A DNA stretch of 64,000 nt from an uncultured Bacteroidia bacterium (GTDB lineage Bacteria > Bacteroidota > Bacteroidia > Bacteroidales > F082), in the NCBI GenBank assembly GCA_902774365.1, contig CACYHX010000003.1, positions 57,551 to 121,550 of the forward strand, read 5' to 3'. Numbering within the stretch: the first letter of the stretch is position 1; the number at the start of each line of letters is the position of its first letter. Under the pieces are notes generated by a model. The model made no database searches and was not told the origin of the DNA. It saw only the letters and a list, made by a program, of their open reading frames with translations. The position numbers and the translations under genes are program-made. Positions 5,642 to 56,102 of this stretch are shown here, piece by piece.

Positions 5642-6783
5642 CCATTTTGTTCGTCACACATTATGCGGGATTCTATGGCGCCAACAAATCCTTGTTGACC
5701 TTGATGGTTCTGTTGCGTGAACGGCACGGGGTCGAGCCAATCGTCCTTTTGCATAATCGAGGTGCGATGTGTGCCATGTTGGAGGAACAAGGGATCGAGT
5801 ACGTGGTGTCGCCCTATTATTGGTGGGTGAATTACAACCACGGACTTTTCCAATGGGCCCTCAATAAGCGGAAACAATGGATTAATTGGCACAGAGCGAA
5901 GCGTATTGGCGGTCAACTCAAGGCAAGGAACATCGATTTGGTCTATTCCAATAGTATTTGTGTTAACATGGGCTTCCTTGTCGCCAAATGCCTTGGTCTG
6001 CCTCACGTTTGGCAGTTTAGGGAGAGCCTTACGCAGTTTTCCCTGTCCTTGTCCAAATGCTTATCCAAGCGTTTTTTTGCTGACAAGACCAACAGGAGGT
6101 ATCTGTTGATTAGTGACTATATGATGTCGTTTTATAGGCCCTATCTTCCGCACGAGAGGATGGTGCGAGTCTATAATGGTTTGGATTTGCCCCAAGGAGT
6201 GGCCCGTCGGGAAGAGAACCGGATTAATCAACGGTTGCAAGTGGCCTGTGTGGGAGTGATTTGTGAACAGAAGAACCAGATGGAACTGCTTCGTGCCCAA
6301 TGTGCACTCCATAAACGCGGGATCGACATCGATACATGGCTCGTTGGAACATGCAATGACAAGGCTTACCTGAATTCCATTCAAGACTATGCCAACGATA
6401 ACGGCTTGGCAGGGATGACCCATTTTGTAGGACATGTTGATAAGGTTTTTGAGGTGCTGCAAAAGATGAATCTGGGAGTGGTTACAGCCCACGATGAGGC
6501 GTTTGGCCGTGTCACCATTGAGTATATGCTGATGAAAATGCCTGTGATTGTCAGCCATTCAGGAGCCAGCCCAGAATTGGTTAAATCCGGCCAAACCGGC
6601 TTGATTTATGAATTGGGAGATGTGGAGGCATTAGCCGATGGCATACAAAGCTATTGCTCTAGCCCCAATTTGTTGGTTTCGCAAGGCGAGGCGGCTTTTT
6701 CCGATGCTACAGAGCGCTTCTCAGCGGGTAATAATGCGGAACATATTTATAATCAAATTGTTGAAGTCTTAAGCTCTAAATAA
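5638..6783 (+). CDS. GT4 family glycosyltransferase
   Basis: A 381-residue GT-B retaining glycosyltransferase. The N-terminal domain opens with T-I-L-F-V-T-H-Y-A-G-F-Y-G-A-N-K-S-L, a glycine-rich acceptor-side loop. The C-terminal domain has V-G-V-I-C-E-Q-K-N-Q near residue 200, the signature after the linker, and the E-x7-E motif H-D-E-A-F-G-R-V-T-I-E near residue 287, followed by P-V-I-V-S-H-S-G-A-S-P-E-L, which binds the nucleotide-sugar. It would act in the cytoplasm on the lipid-linked repeat unit. It overlaps the upstream gene by four bases and is followed three bases later by the asparagine-synthetase-like gene. Family assignment is secure; donor and linkage are not. Confidence 0.88.
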   Translation: MTILFVTHYAGFYGANKSLLTLMVLLRERHGVEPIVLLHNRGAMCAMLEEQGIEYVVSPYYWWVNYNHGLFQWALNKRKQWINWHRAKRIGGQLKARNIDLVYSNSICVNMGFLVAKCLGLPHVWQFRESLTQFSLSLSKCLSKRFFADKTNRRYLLISDYMMSFYRPYLPHERMVRVYNGLDLPQGVARREENRINQRLQVACVGVICEQKNQMELLRAQCALHKRGIDIDTWLVGTCNDKAYLNSIQDYANDNGLAGMTHFVGHVDKVFEVLQKMNLGVVTAHDEAFGRVTIEYMLMKMPVIVSHSGASPELVKSGQTGLIYELGDVEALADGIQSYCSSPNLLVSQGEAAFSDATERFSAGNNAEHIYNQIVEVLSSK

Positions 6784-6786
6784 TAT

Positions 6787-8583
6787 ATGTGTGGCATTTC
6801 AGTGGTGTATCGCTATTCGGCTGTCACAGAAGATGATTTGTCGAAGGTTCAACAGATGAATGATCAAATGCGCTATCGCGGACCGGAAGACGAAGGCAGA
6901 TGGTCGGACGAGCATTGCGCTATGGGACAAGTCCGTTTGTCCATTATCGGTTTGGAGAACGGAAAGCAGCCGCTTTTCAATCACGACAAGTCATTGGCCT
7001 TGGTTTGCAATGGCGAGATATACAATTATGTAGAGTTGAAGAAGGAGCTGCAGGCCAAAGGCTTCTCCTTCCTTACGGATAGCGATACCGAGGTAATCCT
7101 TTATCTTTATGAGTTGTACGGGACGGATTGCGTGAACCATCTGCGCGGCATGTTTGCATTTTGTTTGTATGATGTGAAGAAACAGCAACTGCTTGCTGCT
7201 CGAGACAGGATAGGAGAGGAGCGCATCTATTACGCCGAGGTGCCTTGTGGCGTTGTGTTTTGCTCCGAGTTGAAAGGCATCTTGAAAGCGTATATCGACA
7301 CCCCACAATTGAATGTGTCGGCTTTGTTGGAGCCAATTCGTTTTACCGGCGCCTTGAATCCTCGTGATACATTTGTTGAACAGATAAAAAGAGTGCAACC
7401 AGGGGAGATAGTTGTCGTCAATGCCCATGGCGTTCGAAGGAAGTTTTACTGGCAACGACGCCGCACCTATGACTTTAATGGGTCGCTTCTGGATGCCAAA
7501 GCTGAGACGTTGCGTTTGTTGAGGGAGGCGGTTGATATCGAGATGCGGAGCGATGTGCCTGTGGCGATTATGTTGAGTGGCGGCGTTGACAGCAGCGCTG
7601 TGGCAGCCTTGGCTAAGCAAAACGGACATGAGGTTCATACCATAACTACAGGGTATTCTGGCCAGCATTACGAAGATGAACGGGATGTGGCACGGCGTTT
7701 TGCAAAAGAACAAGGATTCGTATATCATGAAATAGAACTCTCGGAGAAGGATTATGTAGACTGCTTCGACGAGTTGACCTCGTATCTTGACGAGCCCATG
7801 ACAGACTCCACCGCCATTGCACAGTGGGCCATGTTTAAGAAAGTGAAGGAGTTGGGCTTCAAGGTGCTGTTGGGCGGCATGGGTGGTGACGAGCTGTTTT
7901 ATGGCTATCCTGCTTGGAACCAGTTGGGCGATTCTTTGCAATTGCGTCGTGAGCACGAATCCATCTTCCCTTGGAAAGGGAAAGAACGGAAGCTGCATTG
8001 GCTCCGTTTCGTTTTGCGGCATTTCAAATGGATTATGATGGCTGGCTACCCCAACAAGTTGGAAGATAAATCTGTGGCTTGGTGGCTTCACGATGATTAC
8101 TATAAGTTCGTGAAAGATGCCACCTTGACTTTAGATGATGAAACCTGGCGTTTGGATGACTTCGACATCTTCAAGGGTTTCGCACCTTGTCCTTTGGGTA
8201 GGGAGGTCGACTTGGTTTATGACTATGCCATTGACACGGTAATGACGCAAGCTTATCTTTATCTATCCGACAGGCTGTCGATGGGGAATTCTCTTGAGGT
8301 GAGGTCTCCGTTGCTTGATTACAAGTTATTTGAGCATGTGATGTCGCTGCCATTGGAGTATAAGTATGTGCCAAGTCGTCCCAAACAGTATCTGAAAGAT
8401 GTGCTGGCAGGGATTGTCCCCGATTATATCTTGTATGCCAGCAAGCGTGGTTTTTCTTCGCCTTCTAGCTTTGTGAACCATGTGGCGCAGCGACATGAAT
8501 ACAAGCATTTTTCATCGCTGCATAAATACTACAATGCTGTGTTAGCTGACCAACTGTTAACGGACCTGTGGAGTTGGCAATGA
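6787..8583 (+). CDS. asnB: asparagine synthetase B-type glutamine amidotransferase
   Basis: A 598-residue class II glutamine amidotransferase. The start M-C-G-I-S puts the catalytic cysteine at position 2 after Met removal, and C-N-G-E-I-Y-N is present near residue 76. The synthetase half has the PP-loop M-L-S-G-G-V-D-S-S near residue 260, which activates a carboxylate with ATP, and G-G-M-G-G-D-E-L near residue 362. In E. coli the enzyme makes asparagine from aspartate and glutamine. Copies inside polysaccharide loci are often proposed to amidate uronic acids or amino-acid decorations of the repeat unit, which is my inference here. It is embedded between a GT4 gene and an acyltransferase whose start overlaps its stop. 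Confidence 0.85.
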   Translation: MCGISVVYRYSAVTEDDLSKVQQMNDQMRYRGPEDEGRWSDEHCAMGQVRLSIIGLENGKQPLFNHDKSLALVCNGEIYNYVELKKELQAKGFSFLTDSDTEVILYLYELYGTDCVNHLRGMFAFCLYDVKKQQLLAARDRIGEERIYYAEVPCGVVFCSELKGILKAYIDTPQLNVSALLEPIRFTGALNPRDTFVEQIKRVQPGEIVVVNAHGVRRKFYWQRRRTYDFNGSLLDAKAETLRLLREAVDIEMRSDVPVAIMLSGGVDSSAVAALAKQNGHEVHTITTGYSGQHYEDERDVARRFAKEQGFVYHEIELSEKDYVDCFDELTSYLDEPMTDSTAIAQWAMFKKVKELGFKVLLGGMGGDELFYGYPAWNQLGDSLQLRREHESIFPWKGKERKLHWLRFVLRHFKWIMMAGYPNKLEDKSVAWWLHDDYYKFVKDATLTLDDETWRLDDFDIFKGFAPCPLGREVDLVYDYAIDTVMTQAYLYLSDRLSMGNSLEVRSPLLDYKLFEHVMSLPLEYKYVPSRPKQYLKDVLAGIVPDYILYASKRGFSSPSSFVNHVAQRHEYKHFSSLHKYYNAVLADQLLTDLWSWQ

Positions 8584-47989: not shown

Positions 47990-48289
47990 ATGCCAAGCAT
48001 CACCCCGAAAGCCCTCTATTATTTGGTTTACGCCATCTTGGTCGCCTTGACCTTTGTGGTCGACATGACATTGCTGAAGAAACTTGACAAGACAAGTCGG
48101 GCGATTGGCTACATCCTGAGCATCATCCTCGACTTGGGCATCCTTGGCTTCGGAATTTATCTGTATTATGCCAAGGGCGAGGATCAGACAGGCTTCGTGC
48201 TGGGCGGCATTTTGTGCGGTCTTTGCCTGCTATGCCTCTTAGGGCGTTATTGGCAAAACAAGGAAATTGACAAAAGGCGTGACCATTGA
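47990..48289 (+). CDS. small membrane protein of unknown function
   Basis: A 99-residue protein with three hydrophobic segments (about residues 9 to 25, 40 to 60 and 68 to 86) and a charged C-terminus ending K-E-I-D-K-R-R-D-H. No conserved motif that I recognise. It has a start right behind a 30-bp palindrome and its stop shares a base with the ATG of the CotH-kinase gene (TGATG), so the two are translationally coupled. It might help export or membrane handling of the secreted CotH protein, but that is only context. Confidence 0.7.
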   Translation: MPSITPKALYYLVYAILVALTFVVDMTLLKKLDKTSRAIGYILSIILDLGILGFGIYLYYAKGEDQTGFVLGGILCGLCLLCLLGRYWQNKEIDKRRDH

Positions 48290-50103
48290 TGAAACGCTTG
48301 GCACTCATAGGATTCGTGCTGTTGCTGTCGCAATGGATGCGGGCACAGACGGTAACATTTTCTGCTACCGGAGGATTCTATGATGCGTCGTTTGAGTTGG
48401 CTTTGCAGTGCAACGCAGCCTATCAAATCCGTTATACCATCAATGGCAATACTCCAACGGGAGCTTCGGCATTGTACGAAGCTCCTTTGTGGTTGGATGA
48501 GGATTTGTATTCAAAATCAGATATATACACGATACAAACTGCCTGTGACGAATTGTTTTTTGCCCCCGAAACGGTGCAACATTGCATCACGCTTCGGGCT
48601 GCTGCATTCGATGAGGCAGGGAATTGTGTCGGTCCTGTCGCCACGCAAAGTTATTTTATTCGTTCCTTGGGCTGCGACACCCATGGTTTGCCCGTGATGG
48701 CCATCAGTGCCGATTCTTTGGCTTTGTTTGACTATGAAACGGGTATTCTCGTCCCTGGTGTGTTTTTTGATCCCTCCAATATCAATGGGACGGGAAATTT
48801 CTATCAGAACGGCCGGGAATGGGAGCGGCTTGTCAATGTGGAGTTTTATGAACCGAATGACAATAGTGGCATCAACCAGCAGGCTGGATTACGTACGCAT
48901 GGCGGAACATGTCGCCGCCAGACGCAGAAAGGCATGAAGATTTATGCTCGTGAAGAGTACGGCAAGAAGCGCTTCAAACACAAGTTCTTTGAGTCAATTC
49001 CCAATGAAAGTTTCAAGCATCTTGTGATGAAGCCGTTCAGCTACCAATGGTTCAATTACGGGATACAGGACAACATCTGCAACCGCATGGCGGCCCATCT
49101 TGACGTGGAGTCCGTCGCCTCGCGTCCCATGGTGCTTTTCATAAATGGCGAGTATTGGGGCATTTATTACCTCAAGGAAAAGCCTGACGCCCATTATCTG
49201 GAGGACCATTTCGGAAACGAGGACACGGACTATAATGTCGTCAGTAATTGGTATGGCTATCTGGTAGATGGCGACACTACTGGCTTCATTGAGATGATGC
49301 GCTGGGTGAACGAGTGCGACCTTACCCAAGAAGAGCAATATGCACGCATCAACGAGATGATTGATGTAAGCAGTTTCATCGACTACTATTGCTTAGAACT
49401 GTTCATCGCCAACAACGACTGGCCCGCCAATAATATGCGCTGCTATCAACTGGATGATGGGAAATGGCGTTGGATCTTCTTCGATGGTGATGATGCGCTC
49501 GCCAAAATGGATTTTGATGTTCTGGAAAATGCCACATCAACGATTAATTTGGGCTGGCCCACCGACGCCAGGTCGACGTTGCTCTTTCGGAAACTGCTTG
49601 AAAACAAAGAGTTTGGTGATCGCTTCCTTCTCCGTTTCAAAGAGCTTTTGACCTCGCAATTTACATATGCAGTGACAAAGCCCTATTTTGACGATGCAGC
49701 AGCTCTGGTTAGGGGAGAGGTGCCTTCGCAATGCGAACGCTTTGGCTTGCCATTGAATCTTGGACAATGGGAGTATGACATTTTGACTGTCGACAAGTTT
49801 CTTAGGACGAGGGTGGAAAATATGATAGACCGACTTGCCGAGTTCTTTGCGACAGAGGACAATACTACGATTATCAAGGTCTTGTATCCGAATCCTGTAA
49901 TCGATAACCTCCATGTGATTCTTTGGAGTGACGGTTTCGCTGTGAGCGATATTGAATTGTATGATCTCATGGGCCGGAGAGTCTATTCCCAAAAGATAGT
50001 CTTGATGGAAGGCGAAAACTATTTGAATTTGTCATGCCCTTATGCTGCTGGCATATACGTTCTTAGATTTGGAAATAAAACGCAAAAATTTGTAATTCAA
50101 TAA
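48289..50103 (+). CDS. secreted CotH-kinase-domain protein with T9SS sorting domain
   Basis: A 604-residue protein with a signal peptide ending at about residue 20 (M-R-A-Q). Residues 25 to 75 resemble a chitobiase-type C-terminal beta-sandwich (Y-T-I-N-G-N-T-P). The CotH domain spans about residues 170 to 430 with K-P-F-S-Y-Q-W, V-L-F-I-N-G-E-Y-W-G-I-Y-Y-L-K-E-K near residue 280 and a F-F-D-G-D-D-A motif near residue 400, the places of ATP-binding and metal residues in CotH pseudokinases. The end is a type A T9SS domain: Y-P-N-P-V then I-E-L-Y-D-L-M-G-R-R-V-Y. It is therefore likely secreted to the cell surface, possibly phosphorylating surface proteins. Confidence 0.85.
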   Translation: MKRLALIGFVLLLSQWMRAQTVTFSATGGFYDASFELALQCNAAYQIRYTINGNTPTGASALYEAPLWLDEDLYSKSDIYTIQTACDELFFAPETVQHCITLRAAAFDEAGNCVGPVATQSYFIRSLGCDTHGLPVMAISADSLALFDYETGILVPGVFFDPSNINGTGNFYQNGREWERLVNVEFYEPNDNSGINQQAGLRTHGGTCRRQTQKGMKIYAREEYGKKRFKHKFFESIPNESFKHLVMKPFSYQWFNYGIQDNICNRMAAHLDVESVASRPMVLFINGEYWGIYYLKEKPDAHYLEDHFGNEDTDYNVVSNWYGYLVDGDTTGFIEMMRWVNECDLTQEEQYARINEMIDVSSFIDYYCLELFIANNDWPANNMRCYQLDDGKWRWIFFDGDDALAKMDFDVLENATSTINLGWPTDARSTLLFRKLLENKEFGDRFLLRFKELLTSQFTYAVTKPYFDDAAALVRGEVPSQCERFGLPLNLGQWEYDILTVDKFLRTRVENMIDRLAEFFATEDNTTIIKVLYPNPVIDNLHVILWSDGFAVSDIELYDLMGRRVYSQKIVLMEGENYLNLSCPYAAGIYVLRFGNKTQKFVIQ

Positions 50104-50813: not shown

Positions 50814-51002
50814 ATGAAAGCATACAAAATCTTTAGGTGGTTTTTGAGAGCATCGGCCTTGACCACGGTGATGTTCGTCATGCAGGCATGCTACGGTTCG
50901 CCGAACATGCGGCCAGAAATGCCTGATGATACAGAACTTATTGGTGAAGAAGAGGTGGAACAACTTGTTGTCGACTCTTTGGAGATGCAAAACAGTTTAT
51001 AA
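50814..51002 (+). CDS. very short lipoprotein of the rSAM/lipoprotein system
   Basis: A 62-residue protein with a leader A-S-A-L-T-T-V-M-F-V-M-Q-A-C-Y-G-S-P: a positively charged start, hydrophobic run and lipobox M-Q-A-C, with lipidation expected at Cys26. The rest is acidic (D-D-T-E-L-I-G-E-E-E-V-E-Q-L-V-V-D). The leader and the C-Y-G-x-P that follows the lipid site are nearly identical to the next lipoprotein, so the two are paralogues; this one has lost, or never had, the beta-sandwich domain. I recall a family of putative lipoproteins linked to radical SAM enzymes (TIGR04134-like) with this C-Y-G-x-P feature. It sits 124 bases before the second copy. Confidence 0.7.
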   Translation: MKAYKIFRWFLRASALTTVMFVMQACYGSPNMRPEMPDDTELIGEEEVEQLVVDSLEMQNSL

Positions 51003-51071
51003 TTTGGATTTGTAGACCATTGATAATCAGCATTGACGTTCCGAAAAAGTTTGTAATGCCTTGAACAAACG

Positions 51072-51101
51072 TTGTTTTTGTTACGATTCTTTCTACTTTT
51101 G
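51072..51101 (+). promoter_or_regulatory. promoter for the main rSAM/lipoprotein operon
   Basis: TTG at 51072 and TACTTTTG at 51094 are 19 bases apart, 25 bases before the ATG at 51127, and followed by GCAG. It separates the short lipoprotein gene from the rest. Confidence 0.65.
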
Positions 51102-51126
51102 CAGCAACAACAAAAAAACGAACGCT

Positions 51127-51519
51127 ATGATAATCTACAAATGGTTAAGAGGGCTGATGAAAGCCTCGGCGCTCACGACGGTGATGTTCATCATGCAGGC
51201 TTGTTATGGCACGCCTAGGGACCTTGATGATATTGTCGAAATCAACTTGTGCGGCTATGTGTCGGATAAGGTCACAGGTCAGCCATTGCAAGGCATACAT
51301 TTGCATGTGTATCATGCTGACGGCTGGTCTGGCTGTCATGACTTTGGAGAATCGGATGAAAACGGATACTTTGAAATGCGGCAGTGGGGCAATATCCATA
51401 GGGTTTCCTCGCTATCCATCGAAGTTGAGGATGAGGAAGAGAACTATCAGCCCTTTGACACCTTGGTCTACTCTGATACAGACCTCACTGGTTTAAAAAT
51501 CAATTTGATAAGTAAATAG
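51127..51519 (+). CDS. lipoprotein of the rSAM/lipoprotein system with a carboxypeptidase-regulatory-like domain
   Basis: About 130 residues. The leader is K-A-S-A-L-T-T-V-M-F-I-M-Q-A-C-Y-G-T-P with lipidation at about Cys27. The mature part reads C-G-Y-V-S-D-K-V-T-G-Q-P-L-Q-G, H-V-Y-H-A-D-G-W-S-G-C-H-D and S-D-E-N-G-Y-F-E-M, the pattern of a CarboxypepD_reg-like beta-sandwich, and contains extra cysteines. It may be the substrate of the radical SAM enzyme encoded two genes on. I start at 51127, since a TTG at 51061 would put the promoter inside the gene. The third lipoprotein begins 14 bases after its stop. Confidence 0.75.
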   Translation: MIIYKWLRGLMKASALTTVMFIMQACYGTPRDLDDIVEINLCGYVSDKVTGQPLQGIHLHVYHADGWSGCHDFGESDENGYFEMRQWGNIHRVSSLSIEVEDEEENYQPFDTLVYSDTDLTGLKINLISK

Positions 51520-51533
51520 TAAATCCTTGAGCG

Positions 51534-51881
51534 ATGAAAAAGCACTCCTTATATAAATGGTTCCGCCGCGTGGCGATGTTTTCGGGCATACCAACCTTGA
51601 CGATGATGTTTGCTTGCTGCTGCAAGTATGGGATGCCAAGCGATTGGATCTATGGTGTGGTTATTGACGAAGAAACAAATGGCTTGATTCCAGAAGTTGT
51701 TATTGGGTCAGAAGGAGATGTCTTGACTGTAACGAACGAGGATGGAGAATTTCGTTTGGTTACTGAAAGCTGCATAGACTTGGAGTTCAGCAAACTAGGT
51801 TACCAAGTAAAGGATACAATGATTTGTCCATCTCAAAATGTACCGGTTACTATTAAGTTGCAAAAGCAACCCGAAGAATGA
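51534..51881 (+). CDS. third lipoprotein of the rSAM/lipoprotein system
   Basis: A 115-residue protein with a charged start (K-K-H-S-L-Y-K-W-F-R-R), a hydrophobic leader and a lipobox ending in three cysteines (F-A-C-C-C-K-Y-G-M-P). The C-K-Y-G-x-P matches the C-Y-G-x-P of its neighbours with one inserted residue. The mature part is a carboxypeptidase-regulatory-like sandwich (G-V-V-I-D-E-E-T-N-G-L-I-P, then T-N-E-D-G-E-F-R-L, L-G-Y-Q-V-K-D-T). Its stop overlaps the radical SAM gene start by four bases (ATGA), which makes co-translation and functional coupling very likely. Confidence 0.75.
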   Translation: MKKHSLYKWFRRVAMFSGIPTLTMMFACCCKYGMPSDWIYGVVIDEETNGLIPEVVIGSEGDVLTVTNEDGEFRLVTESCIDLEFSKLGYQVKDTMICPSQNVPVTIKLQKQPEE

Positions 51882-52930
51882 TGCTCCAAGCCTTACATAA
51901 CTATTTTAGAAAGAAGGAAACTCAGCTCCATGAGCTGAACTATCTTTTTTGGGAGTGTACGCAGCGCTGTAACCTCAATTGCCAGCATTGTGGCTCGGAC
52001 TGTTTGGCTTCGTCGCGCTACAAGGACATGCCTTTCGAGGACTTTCTGAATGCCATCAAACCTTTGGAAACCAAGTATGAGCGCAATTCAGTTTTGGTGG
52101 TCATCACGGGCGGTGAGCCTTTGGTGCGCCCCGACTTGGTCGACTGCGGGCGGCAACTGCGGCAGCACGGCTTTCCATGGGGTATCGTCAGCAACGGCTA
52201 TGCTTACGACGAGACCATGCACAAAAAGCTGATGGACGCGGGAATGTGCAGCATCACCATCAGCCTTGACGGCCTGCGCGACACACACGATGCCTTCCGT
52301 AAACGCCAAGGCAGTTTCGACCATGCCCTTCACGCCATTGATTTGATTGCTAACGAGAAACGTCTGCCTACCTACGACATTGTGACCTGCGTCAGTCCGA
52401 TGAATTTCGGCGAGTTGGAGGCTATCAAGCAGTTGCTTATTGAACATAAGGTGAAAGCGTGGCGCCTATTCACCATCGACCCGATTGGTCGTGCGGCCGC
52501 CGACAAGAGCCTGCAACTCAGCGATGAACAGTTTCGCCAGCTGATGGACTTCATCGTCGCGACCAGAATGGAAGGCAAAATCGATTGCAAGTTCAGTTGC
52601 GAGGCCTATGTCGGCCCTTACGAGCGCAAGGTGCGCGACTGGTTCTATTTCTGCCGCGCGGGCATCACCGTCGGCTCCATTCTCATTGACGGCTCTATTT
52701 CCGCTTGCCCCAATATTGACAGAAGCTTTGCTCAAGGTAACATCTACCAAGACGATTTTCTCGATGTCTGGGAAAATCGTTTCCAGCCTTTCCGCGACCG
52801 CCAATGGATGAAGACGGGTCAATGCGCTGATTGCAAGGTGTTTAAGAGTTGCTTGGGCGGAGCGATGCACCTTCGCTCAAAGTCCGGGGAGTTGTTAGTT
52901 TGCCACTATGGAAAGTTGGGTATGCCCTAA
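51878..52930 (+). CDS. radical SAM/SPASM enzyme of the rSAM/lipoprotein system
   Basis: A 350-residue enzyme. The [4Fe-4S] site C-N-L-N-C-Q-H-C (Cys31, Cys35, Cys38) is canonical C-x3-C-x2-C; V-I-T-G-G-E-P-L-V near residue 70 is the SAM-binding G-G-E-P motif. The C-terminal part carries further cysteines in the SPASM pattern (F-C-R-A-G, S-A-C-P-N-I, C-A-D-C-K, C-L-G-G, V-C-H-Y-G), which would hold auxiliary clusters. SPASM enzymes modify peptides and proteins; here the natural targets are the three lipoproteins encoded just upstream. The architecture and neighbourhood match the rSAM/lipoprotein system I recall as TIGR04133, whose chemistry is not established to my knowledge. The start at 51878 overlaps the previous gene by four bases. 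Confidence 0.85.
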   Translation: MMLQALHNYFRKKETQLHELNYLFWECTQRCNLNCQHCGSDCLASSRYKDMPFEDFLNAIKPLETKYERNSVLVVITGGEPLVRPDLVDCGRQLRQHGFPWGIVSNGYAYDETMHKKLMDAGMCSITISLDGLRDTHDAFRKRQGSFDHALHAIDLIANEKRLPTYDIVTCVSPMNFGELEAIKQLLIEHKVKAWRLFTIDPIGRAAADKSLQLSDEQFRQLMDFIVATRMEGKIDCKFSCEAYVGPYERKVRDWFYFCRAGITVGSILIDGSISACPNIDRSFAQGNIYQDDFLDVWENRFQPFRDRQWMKTGQCADCKVFKSCLGGAMHLRSKSGELLVCHYGKLGMP

Positions 52931-53129: not shown

Positions 53130-53173
53130 CAGTGTTCTATTCAACTAATACACTAACACAAAAATACAACAAC

Positions 53174-53998
53174 ATGATTGAAATCAAGAATTTAGACTTC
53201 GGCTACAAGAATCAGCCAGTCTTCAACAACATCAGCCTCAGCTTCGAGAAGGGCAACATCTACGGGCTGTTAGGCGAAAACGGAGTGGGGAAGACCTCCC
53301 TGCTGAAACTCATCAGCGGCTTGCAGAAGCCGACCGCTGGCGCCTGCGAGGTGGACGGCATTGCGCCTTTCAACCGCTTACCGGAAACCCTCCAGAAGAT
53401 TTACTTCATCTCGGAGGATTTCGCCATCCCGGAGGGCACACCTATTAATAATATAAGGGAGTTGGGCGTGTTCTATCCCCATTACGACGAGAACCTTTTC
53501 CATGAACTCTGCAAGGAGATGGAAGTAGACCCGACGCGCAAATTCGCCGAGTTGTCGTTTGGCCAGCAGAAGAAGTGCCTCATCGCCACGGCTTTGGCTT
53601 TGAATACGGACTATCTGCTCCTTGACGAACCCACCAACGGCCTCGACATCCCCTCGAAGACCCTCTTCCGTCAGGTCATCGCCAAGCATGCCACGGAAAA
53701 CCGCACCATCATCATCTCCACCCACCAGGTGAAGGATGTGGAAAACCTCATCGACCCCATCATCATCCTCGACCATGACGAGGTACTGCTGAAGGCCTCG
53801 TTCCGCGAAATCACCGACCGTCTCTATTTCGATTATGGCATGGAGAAGGACGACACCGCGCTCTACAGTGAGATGATCCCTGGCGGCTACGTCAACGTGA
53901 CCCGCAACCCCGAAGGCCTTGACAGCAAAGTCAGCATCGAGGTGCTGTTCAACACCGTGATGAAAAACAAGGAAACCATCAAACAAATCTTTAGTTAA
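53174..53998 (+). CDS. ABC transporter ATP-binding protein
   Basis: A 274-residue ATPase. Walker A is G-L-L-G-E-N-G-V-G-K-T-S near residue 34, the ABC signature L-S-F-G-Q-Q-K-K near residue 130 (glutamine and phenylalanine forms of L-S-G-G-Q are common in this group), Walker B Y-L-L-L-D-E-P-T-N-G-L-D near residue 152 and the H-loop I-I-S-T-H-Q near residue 184. It would power the permease encoded 15 bases on. The pairing with a YtrA-like GntR regulator suggests a role in drug, bacteriocin or cell-envelope stress response, as for YtrA-controlled transporters of Firmicutes, but the substrate is unknown. I use the ATG at 53174; the frame's earlier ATG at 53132 precedes M-I-E-I-K-N-L. Confidence 0.9.
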   Translation: MIEIKNLDFGYKNQPVFNNISLSFEKGNIYGLLGENGVGKTSLLKLISGLQKPTAGACEVDGIAPFNRLPETLQKIYFISEDFAIPEGTPINNIRELGVFYPHYDENLFHELCKEMEVDPTRKFAELSFGQQKKCLIATALALNTDYLLLDEPTNGLDIPSKTLFRQVIAKHATENRTIIISTHQVKDVENLIDPIIILDHDEVLLKASFREITDRLYFDYGMEKDDTALYSEMIPGGYVNVTRNPEGLDSKVSIEVLFNTVMKNKETIKQIFS

Positions 53999-53999
53999 T

Positions 54000-54005
54000 A
54001 GGAGG
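54000..54005 (+). promoter_or_regulatory. strong Shine-Dalgarno sequence before the permease gene
   Basis: AGGAGG lies eight bases before the permease ATG. Most genes here have no such site, as usual in Bacteroidota. Confidence 0.6.
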
Positions 54006-54013
54006 ATAAAGTC

Positions 54014-54853
54014 ATGAATAACACATTTGAAATCAATCGTTTCAAGAACCTTTTGCTGAAAGACGGTAGGAGGTATTTCCGCAATTACGGAACTGGACTT
54101 GTTGTTTTCTGCTGCTTGAACGCCATCTCCTGGATTTTCAACCTCTTGTTTGGTACGTCATCCCAACAGCCGTTCCGCTTTGGTATGCTTTGCACTTGGA
54201 CAGCATTGGCCATGATGATGGTACCAGAGAAGGTCTACGGCAAGGCCAACCTTTCGCGTGAGGGCGTGAGTTTCGCCATGCTGCCTGCCTCTTCGTTGGA
54301 GAAGTTCATCAGCATGTTCATCTATTGCGCCATCGTGACGCCCATCATCGTCTTCTTTGGCGGTTACTTGGTTGACACGCTACTGTCGCTCTTCCCCTTC
54401 GGCGGTTTCGAGAAGCCGATACATCTCTACACTATCAATGAGGTTGTTCGCATGATAGACAATTCAGAAGGAGTGGTGCAATCCAGCAATATAGAACTCT
54501 CTTTTGGCGATGTGTTCCCTGTAGGAGTGATTCGCATTTCGCTTTATGTGGGCATCATTCAATGGGCGGCTATCTTCATGCTCGGCAATATGGTTTTCAA
54601 AAAACACAAAGCCGGAAAGACTTTTGCCAGCTATCTGGGTGTCTCCTACGTGCTTTCCACAATATTTGGACTTGCATTTACGTCAAGCAGCAGCCGCCTG
54701 AAGCAGTGGCTCGAAAATATGGATAGCGTTTCTGAGGAGGAGATGATACAAATCGCCCATAATGGAATGATTTGTGGCATGGTAGTCGGCATCATCATCA
54801 CGGGCGTGCTGCTTTTCTTCACCTATCATAAAATCAAGACGCAAAAATACTAA
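54014..54853 (+). CDS. ABC transporter permease-like membrane protein
   Basis: A 279-residue protein with six hydrophobic spans (about residues 27 to 45, 58 to 72, 100 to 125, 175 to 195, 215 to 235 and 255 to 275). No recognisable EAA loop, but the layout matches the ABC2-type membrane partner of small export ATPases. It is encoded between the ATP-binding protein and the GntR regulator, with a Shine-Dalgarno site AGGAGG before it. The role is likely export of a compound or envelope peptide. Its stop is three bases before the regulator's ATG. Confidence 0.75.
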   Translation: MNNTFEINRFKNLLLKDGRRYFRNYGTGLVVFCCLNAISWIFNLLFGTSSQQPFRFGMLCTWTALAMMMVPEKVYGKANLSREGVSFAMLPASSLEKFISMFIYCAIVTPIIVFFGGYLVDTLLSLFPFGGFEKPIHLYTINEVVRMIDNSEGVVQSSNIELSFGDVFPVGVIRISLYVGIIQWAAIFMLGNMVFKKHKAGKTFASYLGVSYVLSTIFGLAFTSSSSRLKQWLENMDSVSEEEMIQIAHNGMICGMVVGIIITGVLLFFTYHKIKTQKY

Positions 54854-54856
54854 ACC

Positions 54857-55195
54857 ATGGAATTCAACGCACACAAACCCATATACTTGCAGATTTGCTC
54901 GCAGCTCTATGAACAGATTCTGCGCGGCGAGTTGAAGGCCGACGACCGCATCCTTTCGGTGCGCGACTACGGCATCCAACTTGGGGTGAACCCCAACACC
55001 ATTATGCGCTCCTACGAGACCATGACGGCGGCGGGCATCATCTACAACAAACGCGGCATCGGCTATTTCATCTCCGCCGAAGCCAAGGACATCGTCCTCA
55101 AGCAAATGCGCGAGGAGTTCCTTGAAAAGGAACTGCCCGAAGTCATTAAGAAAATGAAATTGCTTGGCATAGGGCTGGATGAGATAAGACTGTAG
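54857..55195 (+). CDS. GntR family regulator, YtrA-like
   Basis: A 112-residue DNA-binding protein with a GntR winged helix: P-I-Y-L-Q-I-C-S-Q-L-Y-E-Q-I near residue 8, then L-S-V-R-D-Y-G-I-Q-L-G-V-N-P-N-T-I near residue 33, the recognition helix region. The short C-terminal part without a large effector domain is typical of the YtrA subfamily, which usually regulates adjacent ABC transporter genes. It stands at the end of the operon instead of the beginning, and would bind its promoter at 53100 region. No operator is identified by eye. Confidence 0.85.
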   Translation: MEFNAHKPIYLQICSQLYEQILRGELKADDRILSVRDYGIQLGVNPNTIMRSYETMTAAGIIYNKRGIGYFISAEAKDIVLKQMREEFLEKELPEVIKKMKLLGIGLDEIRL

Positions 55196-55286
55196 GAGAT
55201 TTCCTGCTGGAACCTAAAAAACACACTAGACTGTAACTTTTTCACCTGTTCTTCGTATTACTACAAATCAATTAAAACTTAATACA

Positions 55287-56102
55287 ATGAAAAGACACAT
55301 CATAATCATTGCAGCCGTCATCATTGGCATGATGCTCAATGCCTGTACTATCAATGTTGATGGCGAATCGTTTGGCTTTAAAACCGTCAAAGGCGACGGG
55401 AATGTTGTCACTCGAGACTACGACGTGGCAGCATTCAACGCCATCTCGACTTCGTTGCCGGCAACGGTCAACTTCACCATTGCTGACAGTTATTCCTGCA
55501 CCGTGAGCGTTGACGAGAACCTTTTCGACTATCTTGACATCAAAGTGAAAGACAATGAATTGCTGATGGGCAAACGAGAGGAAGACAAAAACACCAGCCT
55601 AAAAGCCACACAGTTCGTCATCGAGGTGACGGCTCCGAGTTTGGAGAACCTTAACCTTGCGGGCAGCGGCACTTTCAACGCGCTTAGCCCGTTGCAAGGA
55701 GAGGCAATGGAGGTCAACTTGGCTGGTTCAGGCGACATTGTTTTCCACAAAACGGTTAGCGCTCGTGACATCGAGTTGAATGTGGCTGGCTCTGGTGACA
55801 TGGTTTGCGACGACTTAGTTGCTGACAAATTGGATAGCAACATTGCAGGTTCTGGCGACTTGAAAGTCACAAAGGGCACGGTGCGTGAAGCTACGGCCAG
55901 CGTGGCCGGCTCTGGCGACATCGTTCTCACCTGCGACATTGAAAACCTCGATGCCAACGTCGCTGGCTCAGGCGACATCAAGGCACGGGTCAACGGCAAA
56001 CTCACTTATGGCATCTTCGGCTCAGGCGACATTGGTTACTACGGCAACCCTGTCGTGGAAGGCGACAAAGTGGGAGGCGGGGTCAAGCGCCTTGGCGACT
56101 GA
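55287..56102 (+). CDS. GIN-domain (DUF2807) lipoprotein with AGSGD repeats
   Basis: A 271-residue lipoprotein: hydrophobic leader then L-N-A-C (lipidation at about Cys20). The rest is a DUF2807 head GIN domain, with seven regular units of about 20 residues beginning A-G-S-G-D (A-G-S-G-T-F, A-G-S-G-D-I, A-G-S-G-D-M, A-G-S-G-D-L, then I-K and G-I-F-G-S-G-D-I). Such repeats form a right-handed beta-helix. In Bacteroidota these proteins are usually in the envelope and often lie next to regulators or transporters; function is not established. It follows the GntR gene after 91 bases with no clear promoter seen. Confidence 0.85.
   Translation: MKRHIIIIAAVIIGMMLNACTINVDGESFGFKTVKGDGNVVTRDYDVAAFNAISTSLPATVNFTIADSYSCTVSVDENLFDYLDIKVKDNELLMGKREEDKNTSLKATQFVIEVTAPSLENLNLAGSGTFNALSPLQGEAMEVNLAGSGDIVFHKTVSARDIELNVAGSGDMVCDDLVADKLDSNIAGSGDLKVTKGTVREATASVAGSGDIVLTCDIENLDANVAGSGDIKARVNGKLTYGIFGSGDIGYYGNPVVEGDKVGGGVKRLGD

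Follow-up and report, generated by a model that had tools for sequence, protein, structure and literature searches.

Which part of three small lipoproteins would be acted on by the radical S-adenosylmethionine (SAM)/SPASM enzyme encoded directly behind them, and what would be done there? The question arises at positions 50814-52930 of the window, i.e. the whole analyzed stretch of 64,000 nucleotides from an uncultured Bacteroidia bacterium (57551-121550 on contig 3 of the 79-contig assembly G000), where genes for lipoproteins of 62, 130 and 115 residues and for a 350-residue enzyme follow each other in one direction. The original prediction, made from the letters of this stretch, had described this row of genes and an overlap of the last lipoprotein with the enzyme start; the open reading frames (ORFs) agree with it, and the overlap comprises four bases (ATGA, stop codon of lipoprotein 3 and ATG of the enzyme). 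Comparison with related loci points to a short motif, Y-G-x-P, as the site on which the enzyme probably acts. Chances are about even that the locus encodes a two-part modification system in which the X-Y-G-x-P core of the neighboring lipoproteins is the target and tyramine is excised from it.

The Y-G-x-P motif in TIGR04133-type loci

The window enzyme belongs to the family TIGR04133 (rSAM_w_lipo; 482.6 bits, E 5.9e-145, residues 6-347, curated cut-off 425) and matches PF04055 (Radical_SAM, 71.0 bits) and PF13186 (SPASM, 30.6 bits) above their cut-offs. The four proteins had been assigned to the family pair TIGR04133/TIGR04134 (rSAM_w_lipo/lipo_with_rSAM). In the profile searches this agreed with the enzyme and with the partners of some relatives, but not with the lipoproteins of the window, none of which matches TIGR04134 at E<=1 (curated cut-off 39.8 bits). 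TIGR04134 found no match in the whole genome either, the controls of that search being likewise silent. Among relatives, the partner in locus L050 passes the cut-off with 44.2 bits, and those in L059 (37.8 bits), L081 (36.5 bits), L082 (34.2 bits) and L042 (22.7 bits) stay below it.

The motif reads CYGSP in lipoprotein 1, CYGTP in lipoprotein 2 and CCCKYGMP in lipoprotein 3, the residue in front of Y-G being the lipid Cys in the first two and Lys in the third. A leader common to all three had been proposed; those of lipoproteins 1 and 2 are 61% alike over 31 residues, while the leader of lipoprotein 3 is alike in style and was not recovered by that of lipoprotein 1 in a search of the genome. 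Lipoprotein 1 is, as described, a leader with an acidic tail (62 residues, CYGSP, no sandwich) and may represent the minimal substrate type; this short type is the sole partner found in many close loci. Of the carboxypeptidase-regulatory-like sandwich expected in the other two, lipoprotein 3 comes just below the gathering cut-off of PF13715 (Table 1), and lipoprotein 2 gives a hint only (12.5 bits with PF13715; faint, 13.7 bits, E 0.079, with PF13620). The partner in the relative L042 passes the PF13715 cut-off with 37.5 bits.

The same genome encodes a second TIGR04133 enzyme (L002, G000:C2:84791-85804), 44% identical to the window enzyme. The lipoprotein that precedes it (L002:2577-3035, minus strand) consists of charged helix-like repeats without a sandwich and, as in the window, has no TIGR04134 match. 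Its two motifs, VYGSPE and VYGTPE, stand a long way behind the lipid Cys, and up to three occur in its relatives (L114, L116).

Two sets of loci were surveyed. The first comprises 80 loci (the best 80 of 418) with enzymes 55-97% identical. Among these 80, the closest are uncultured Bacteroidales or Bacteroidia bins, many titled by ruminant gut compartment, and by these relatives the assembly of the window is itself a Bacteroidales metagenome bin. The set also includes the isolate Draconibacterium sediminis (L081, with CYGTP) and nine bins that carry the label Treponema or Spirochaetaceae. By script, 78 of the 80 have a same-strand ORF with C-x(0-3)-[YF]G.P within 4.5 kb, and in 77 of those 78 (exception L033) one such ORF ends <=50 bases from the enzyme start; L060 and L062, the latter at a contig edge, have none. 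Y-G-x-P, the key motif of the original prediction, thus recurs far beyond chance. For the second set, 393 order genomes were searched with the second enzyme; 94 of them hold a relative at E<=1e-60, and flanking sequence was taken for every listed match except two. From both sets together, 196 enzyme matches gave 190 distinct TIGR04133-type loci once six identical ones had been removed.

A same-strand YGxP ORF lies between 2.5 kb upstream and 1.5 kb downstream in 176 of the 190 loci, compared with 31/190 for the opposite strand, 12-44/190 for five rearrangements of the motif (GY.P, YP.G, PG.Y, GP.Y and PY.G) on the same strand, and 6 to 63/190 for other same-strand motifs (highest YG.V 63, PG.Y 44, FG.P 43 and YG.A 42). 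Three of the 14 misses have <400 bases upstream (L062, L149, L207) and the partners of five keep YG and lose P (L084, L173, L200, L203, L204); the other six are considered further below. Immediate neighbors with a lipobox-like signal are present in 172 loci (16 more have none by the rule of the script); as scored, 164 of the 172 contain YG and 155 contain YGxP, and the latter was found in 18 of 438 control lipobox-like ORFs elsewhere in the loci. Three of the 17 scored misses (L007, L010, L038) actually contain YGxP, the script having picked a late start. YG without P is kept in L150, L174, L195 and L196; no YG occurs in the immediate neighbor in L139, L151 and L194, and just IYGIKV in L138. 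For L138 and L139 a YGxP lipoprotein lies farther upstream. With the same script a same-strand YGxP ORF was found in 28/28 TIGR04133 loci and in 7/17 other SPASM loci (six of these seven ORFs are four near-copies of one 451-455-residue protein with PYGNP and two of 30-35 residues); a bare YGxP near an enzyme is therefore weak evidence for any single locus, and the weight lies with the recurrence of YGxP in lipoproteins.

The 211 distinct YGxP partners form an automatic set in which chance entries are left in the counts (seen in L031, L049, L052, L053 and L060). The motif lies <=4 residues from the Cys in 38 partners with a mature part of <60 residues and in 84 with a longer one (two with repeats), 5-25 residues downstream of the Cys, with a long mature part following, in 52 (seven with repeats), close to the C-terminus in 23 (five with repeats, chance entries included) and elsewhere inside the protein in 14 (six with repeats). 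Its distance behind the Cys ranges from 1 to >100 residues, and it may stand as little as 6 residues before the C-terminus. The tie of the target to the lipid site, which the original prediction had considered, does not survive this range, and proximity to the lipid site was rejected as the defining position of the motif in view of the C-terminal and repeat types. Two or three motifs occur in 20 of the 211 partners, e.g. KYGVP/KYGVP/KYGIP in L175, compared with 0.02 proteins on average, and at most 1, when mature parts were shuffled. Several targets per enzyme, regarded as unusual in the prediction, are not confined to the window: by script, two or three were counted in 12 of 47 close loci (L003-L049), with a CFGIP ORF included in L022.

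Within 234 motifs, where Y, G and P were required and their constancy is uninformative, the residue before Y is C in 112, E in 35, K in 27, V in 18, M in 13, L in 12 and A in 8; the residue after G is T in 98, S in 33, V in 24, M in 21, P in 19 and A in 17, with I, L, C and others also found. Outside the motif, no residue was seen by eye, i.e. without a formal cross-type alignment, to be common to different partner types. Since the minimal type consists of no more than a leader, the Cys, YGxP and the acidic tail, and no other shared residue was seen, YGxP stands out as the best candidate for the target.

Pairs of a CYGTP or CYGPP lipoprotein and an enzyme were observed in the Treponema- or Spirochaetaceae-labelled bins (L059, L065-L068, L071-L073, L075), by transfer between phyla or by binning error.

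Comparison with the splicease PlpXY

A precedent for a reaction at such a core is the splicease PlpXY, which according to passages of PMC10533398 and PMC10373908 excises tyramine (C8H9NO) at X-Y-G, naturally MYG and LYG, can splice several sites per precursor and does not require the leader. The printed mass shift is -135.0757 Da (135.07 from the formula); of two published splice tags, ...PIRPLYGLPI holds YGxP and AVAAGYGVVFPG does not. The literature covered on the chemistry also includes passages of PMC11002830, PMC11117315 and PMC8326336, and those of PMC8939145 concern graspetides and other precursors. PlpX is assigned to IPR026482 in passages of PMC11002830.

As with PlpXY, a SPASM radical SAM enzyme is combined here with an X-Y-G core, which is present in all three window lipoproteins, and several cores per precursor are possible; partners that have lost P mostly keep YG, in agreement with the published XYG rule. 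In contrast to PlpXY, the TIGR04133 substrates are lipoproteins, Pro is nearly constant and the enzyme has extra Cys residues. Across 99 aligned relatives, the cysteines of CX3CX2C (C31/C35/C38), the GGE motif and six Cys of the SPASM region (259, 277, 316, 319, 325 and 342 in the window enzyme) are invariant; among the 190 TIGR04133-type enzymes C42 and C241 are invariant as well, and C171 is present at 99%. Of 10 PlpX-like enzymes, one has Cys at the position of C42, and C171 and C241 are replaced in at least 8. These three residues may serve as additional ligands of a cluster or take part in catalysis. Among solved structures, seven distinct chains matched at E<=1e-5 (best 7vob, 67.7 bits), and none bears the splicease name.

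TIGR04103, which we take to be the family behind IPR026482, gives 113.5 bits with the window enzyme (curated cut-off 725), and no protein in 296 phylum genomes passes that cut-off. The 11 best sub-cut-off TIGR04133 matches in these genomes (151-181 bits, next 112) lie at the same 11 places as the TIGR04103 matches at E<=1e-45, i.e. the PlpX-like enzymes, and for 7 of the 8 of them that were scanned the three highest-scoring families are TIGR03913, TIGR04103 and TIGR04133. In a tree of 57 rows TIGR04133 and PlpX-like enzymes stand together (84/92), but a single long-branched row from outside the two groups falls among them. They do so again (96/93, simpler LG+G4 model) in a tree of 43 rows, made after 11 of the 26 TIGR04133 rows and three other rows with long branches had been dropped. 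Both trees have few outgroups and were built without PlpX itself, and the PlpX-like L233 is in neither.

Partners near these enzymes were also inspected. L244, whose enzyme scores best on TIGR03913 and TIGR04103, encodes a 214-residue protein (6415-7056) with no Pfam match and six terminal KYGYP repeats, which is perhaps a multi-site precursor. A protein in the PlpX-like locus L242 ends in LLYGTPPVPLYQAPSK, with LLYGTPPVPL. Of the PlpX-like enzymes, that of L223/L247 scores best on TIGR03913 (GDL motif peptide-associated radical SAM/SPASM maturase; 525.9 bits, below the cut-off of 591.75) and is likewise adjoined by two short ORFs with YG (PYGV, LYGV); unlike the TIGR04133 partners these are 57-58 residues long and not lipoproteins, and the one scanned matches DUF1843.

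To learn which other proteins belong to the system, 754 ORFs of >=60 residues around 118 diverse loci, many with about 1.5 kb per side, were clustered (BLAST E<=1e-4). The sole widely conserved neighbor cluster is the lipoprotein (94 of 118 loci), with a second lipoprotein type in 7; the largest remaining cluster covers 11 loci (example ABC ATPase-like), and same-strand upstream ORFs make up 2 of its 12 members. The clustering, from which ORFs <60 residues and very diverged proteins escape, gave no partner of the RRE, protease or transporter kind. With the lipoprotein as the lone widely conserved neighbor, the system therefore seems two-part.

NCBIfam assigns no chemistry to the TIGR04133/TIGR04134 pair ('hypoth_equivalog'). 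Literature searches on accessions and wording gave nothing on the pair; Scott et al. 2022 (Chem 8:2659), the likeliest overlap, is outside that coverage. The family pair is thus already named; the motif-level target, its position independence and the splicease reading were not found by these searches, Scott et al. 2022 aside. Passages of PMC10533398 credit that paper with 27 further splicease systems that are characterised and 939 that are predicted, and TIGR04133 systems may be among those it lists.

Gene layout of the window locus

The features of the locus are listed in Table 1. Lipoprotein 2 is counted from an ATG, giving 130 residues; the ORF list holds a longer frame of 152 residues from an upstream TTG. 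The promoter pattern TTTG-N16..23-TANNTTTG has 3 matches in the window (2.1 expected), none of them before the lipoprotein or enzyme genes, and scans for sigma-70 promoters and terminators were at chance level; therefore no claim is made about transcripts.

Table 1. Coordinates of the lipoprotein genes, motifs and enzyme gene in the window
Feature	Position	Strand	Remarks
Lipoprotein 1	50814..51002	+	62 residues; signal peptide, lipid Cys26, CYGSP, acidic tail; no further Cys
Y-G-S-P motif, lipoprotein 1	50892..50903	+	immediately behind the lipid Cys; from sequence
Lipoprotein 2	51127..51519	+	130 residues; leader like that of lipoprotein 1, CYGTP, weak carboxypeptidase-regulatory-like part
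Y-G-T-P motif, lipoprotein 2	51205..51216	+	from sequence
Lipoprotein 3	51534..51881	+	115 residues; diverged leader, CCCKYGMP, sandwich-like part
Y-G-M-P motif, lipoprotein 3	51627..51638	+	from sequence
Sandwich-like part, lipoprotein 3	51648-51866	+	residues 39-111; PF13715 30.9 bits, gathering cut-off 32.2
Radical SAM/SPASM enzyme, TIGR04133	51878..52930	+	350 residues

Upstream of the cluster (48286-50103) lies a gene for a CotH-kinase-like protein with a type IX secretion C-terminal sorting domain; downstream (53132-56102) follow an ABC-type ATPase and a membrane protein (by eye), a GntR-type regulator and a DUF2807 head-GIN protein.

The proposed reaction and its alternatives

The TIGR04133 enzyme, presumably cytosolic, would act on one to about three adjoining lipoprotein precursors before export. 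Its target would be the short core X-Y-G-x-P, at any position in the protein, and the signal peptide may double as leader for the modification. By analogy with PlpXY the reaction would be tyramine excision, a proposal that could go either way. The lipoproteins would then be lipidated and exported, showing a reactive ketoamide at the cell envelope.

Several observations weigh against this reading. As regards the motif, six of the 14 misses (L145, L151, L166, L179, L180, L194) show no recognizable YG partner despite upstream sequence, and chance ORFs are contained in the 176 of 190, e.g. in L060, where the YGxP ORF is dehydrogenase-like and no motif-bearing lipoprotein is present. The loci are mutually related, so that the counts are not independent and Fisher values overstate the evidence. 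YG alone is common, occurring in 134 of the 438 control ORFs, and the immediate neighbors in L176 (CYAP) and L222 (CYAS) keep Tyr alone, with another YGxP ORF near each. As regards the chemistry, Pro is outside the published XYG rule, so its near-constancy is unexplained by the splicease model; several other SPASM families give 115-128 bits with the window enzyme, so the TIGR04103 score is no higher; and the 43-row tree does not clearly rule out alternative groupings (p-AU 0.064 and 0.052). No evident YG partner adjoins the enzyme in 7 of 10 PlpX-like loci, and no PlpY-like RRE partner was found among the neighbors of the 118 loci, while PlpX works with PlpY.

The constancy of Pro and the TIGR04103 score also speak for another alteration of the same core, for instance one that cross-links Tyr to x, to Pro or to an aromatic residue farther on, or one that oxidizes Tyr, Gly or Pro. 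This reading, which we regard as possible but rather unlikely, rests on the same motif evidence, and an aromatic residue is indeed frequent seven places past Y (F in 39, Y in 33 of the 234 motifs). It fits less well with the free choice of x, with the loss of P while Y-G stays, which is the splicease rule, and with the trees that group TIGR04133 with PlpX-like enzymes.

It is improbable that YGxP is a mere docking or export signal, with nothing modified there or the modified residue elsewhere in the lipoprotein. Export signals of Bacteroidota lipoproteins sit directly behind the lipid Cys, as does the motif in 109 of 234 cases; against such a role, it is found >100 residues from that Cys, in tandem copies and at the C-terminus as well, the mature parts of different types share no other residue by eye, and control lipobox-like ORFs seldom carry it. 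Several SPASM enzymes form thioethers and mature Cys are present in lipoproteins 2 and 3 (CCC in lipoprotein 3), but a sactipeptide- or ranthipeptide-type thioether on Cys of either the lipid site or the mature part is very improbable, as 126 of the 211 partners, by the script's reading, and lipoprotein 1 among the window proteins have no Cys beyond the lipid Cys, which is itself required for lipidation; mature-part Cys, also offered as a target in the original prediction, were accordingly rejected as the general chemistry.

Returning to tyramine excision, the comparison narrows the question of what is modified to four residues and one predicted mass, -135.07 Da (C8H9NO) per motif, and the minimal 62-residue lipoprotein together with relatives holding one to three motifs makes the target hypothesis directly testable. 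In its widest form, which we judge somewhat short of an even chance, many Bacteroidales and some Treponema-labelled bins would splice tyramine from their own envelope lipoproteins at X-Y-G-x-P, with X being the lipid Cys itself in the window and the signal peptide serving as leader, to give encoded alpha-ketoamides (beta-amino backbone) as possible protease or amine traps. If the splicease reading is true, envelope lipoproteins of common animal-gut bacteria would carry backbone-edited beta-amino residues.

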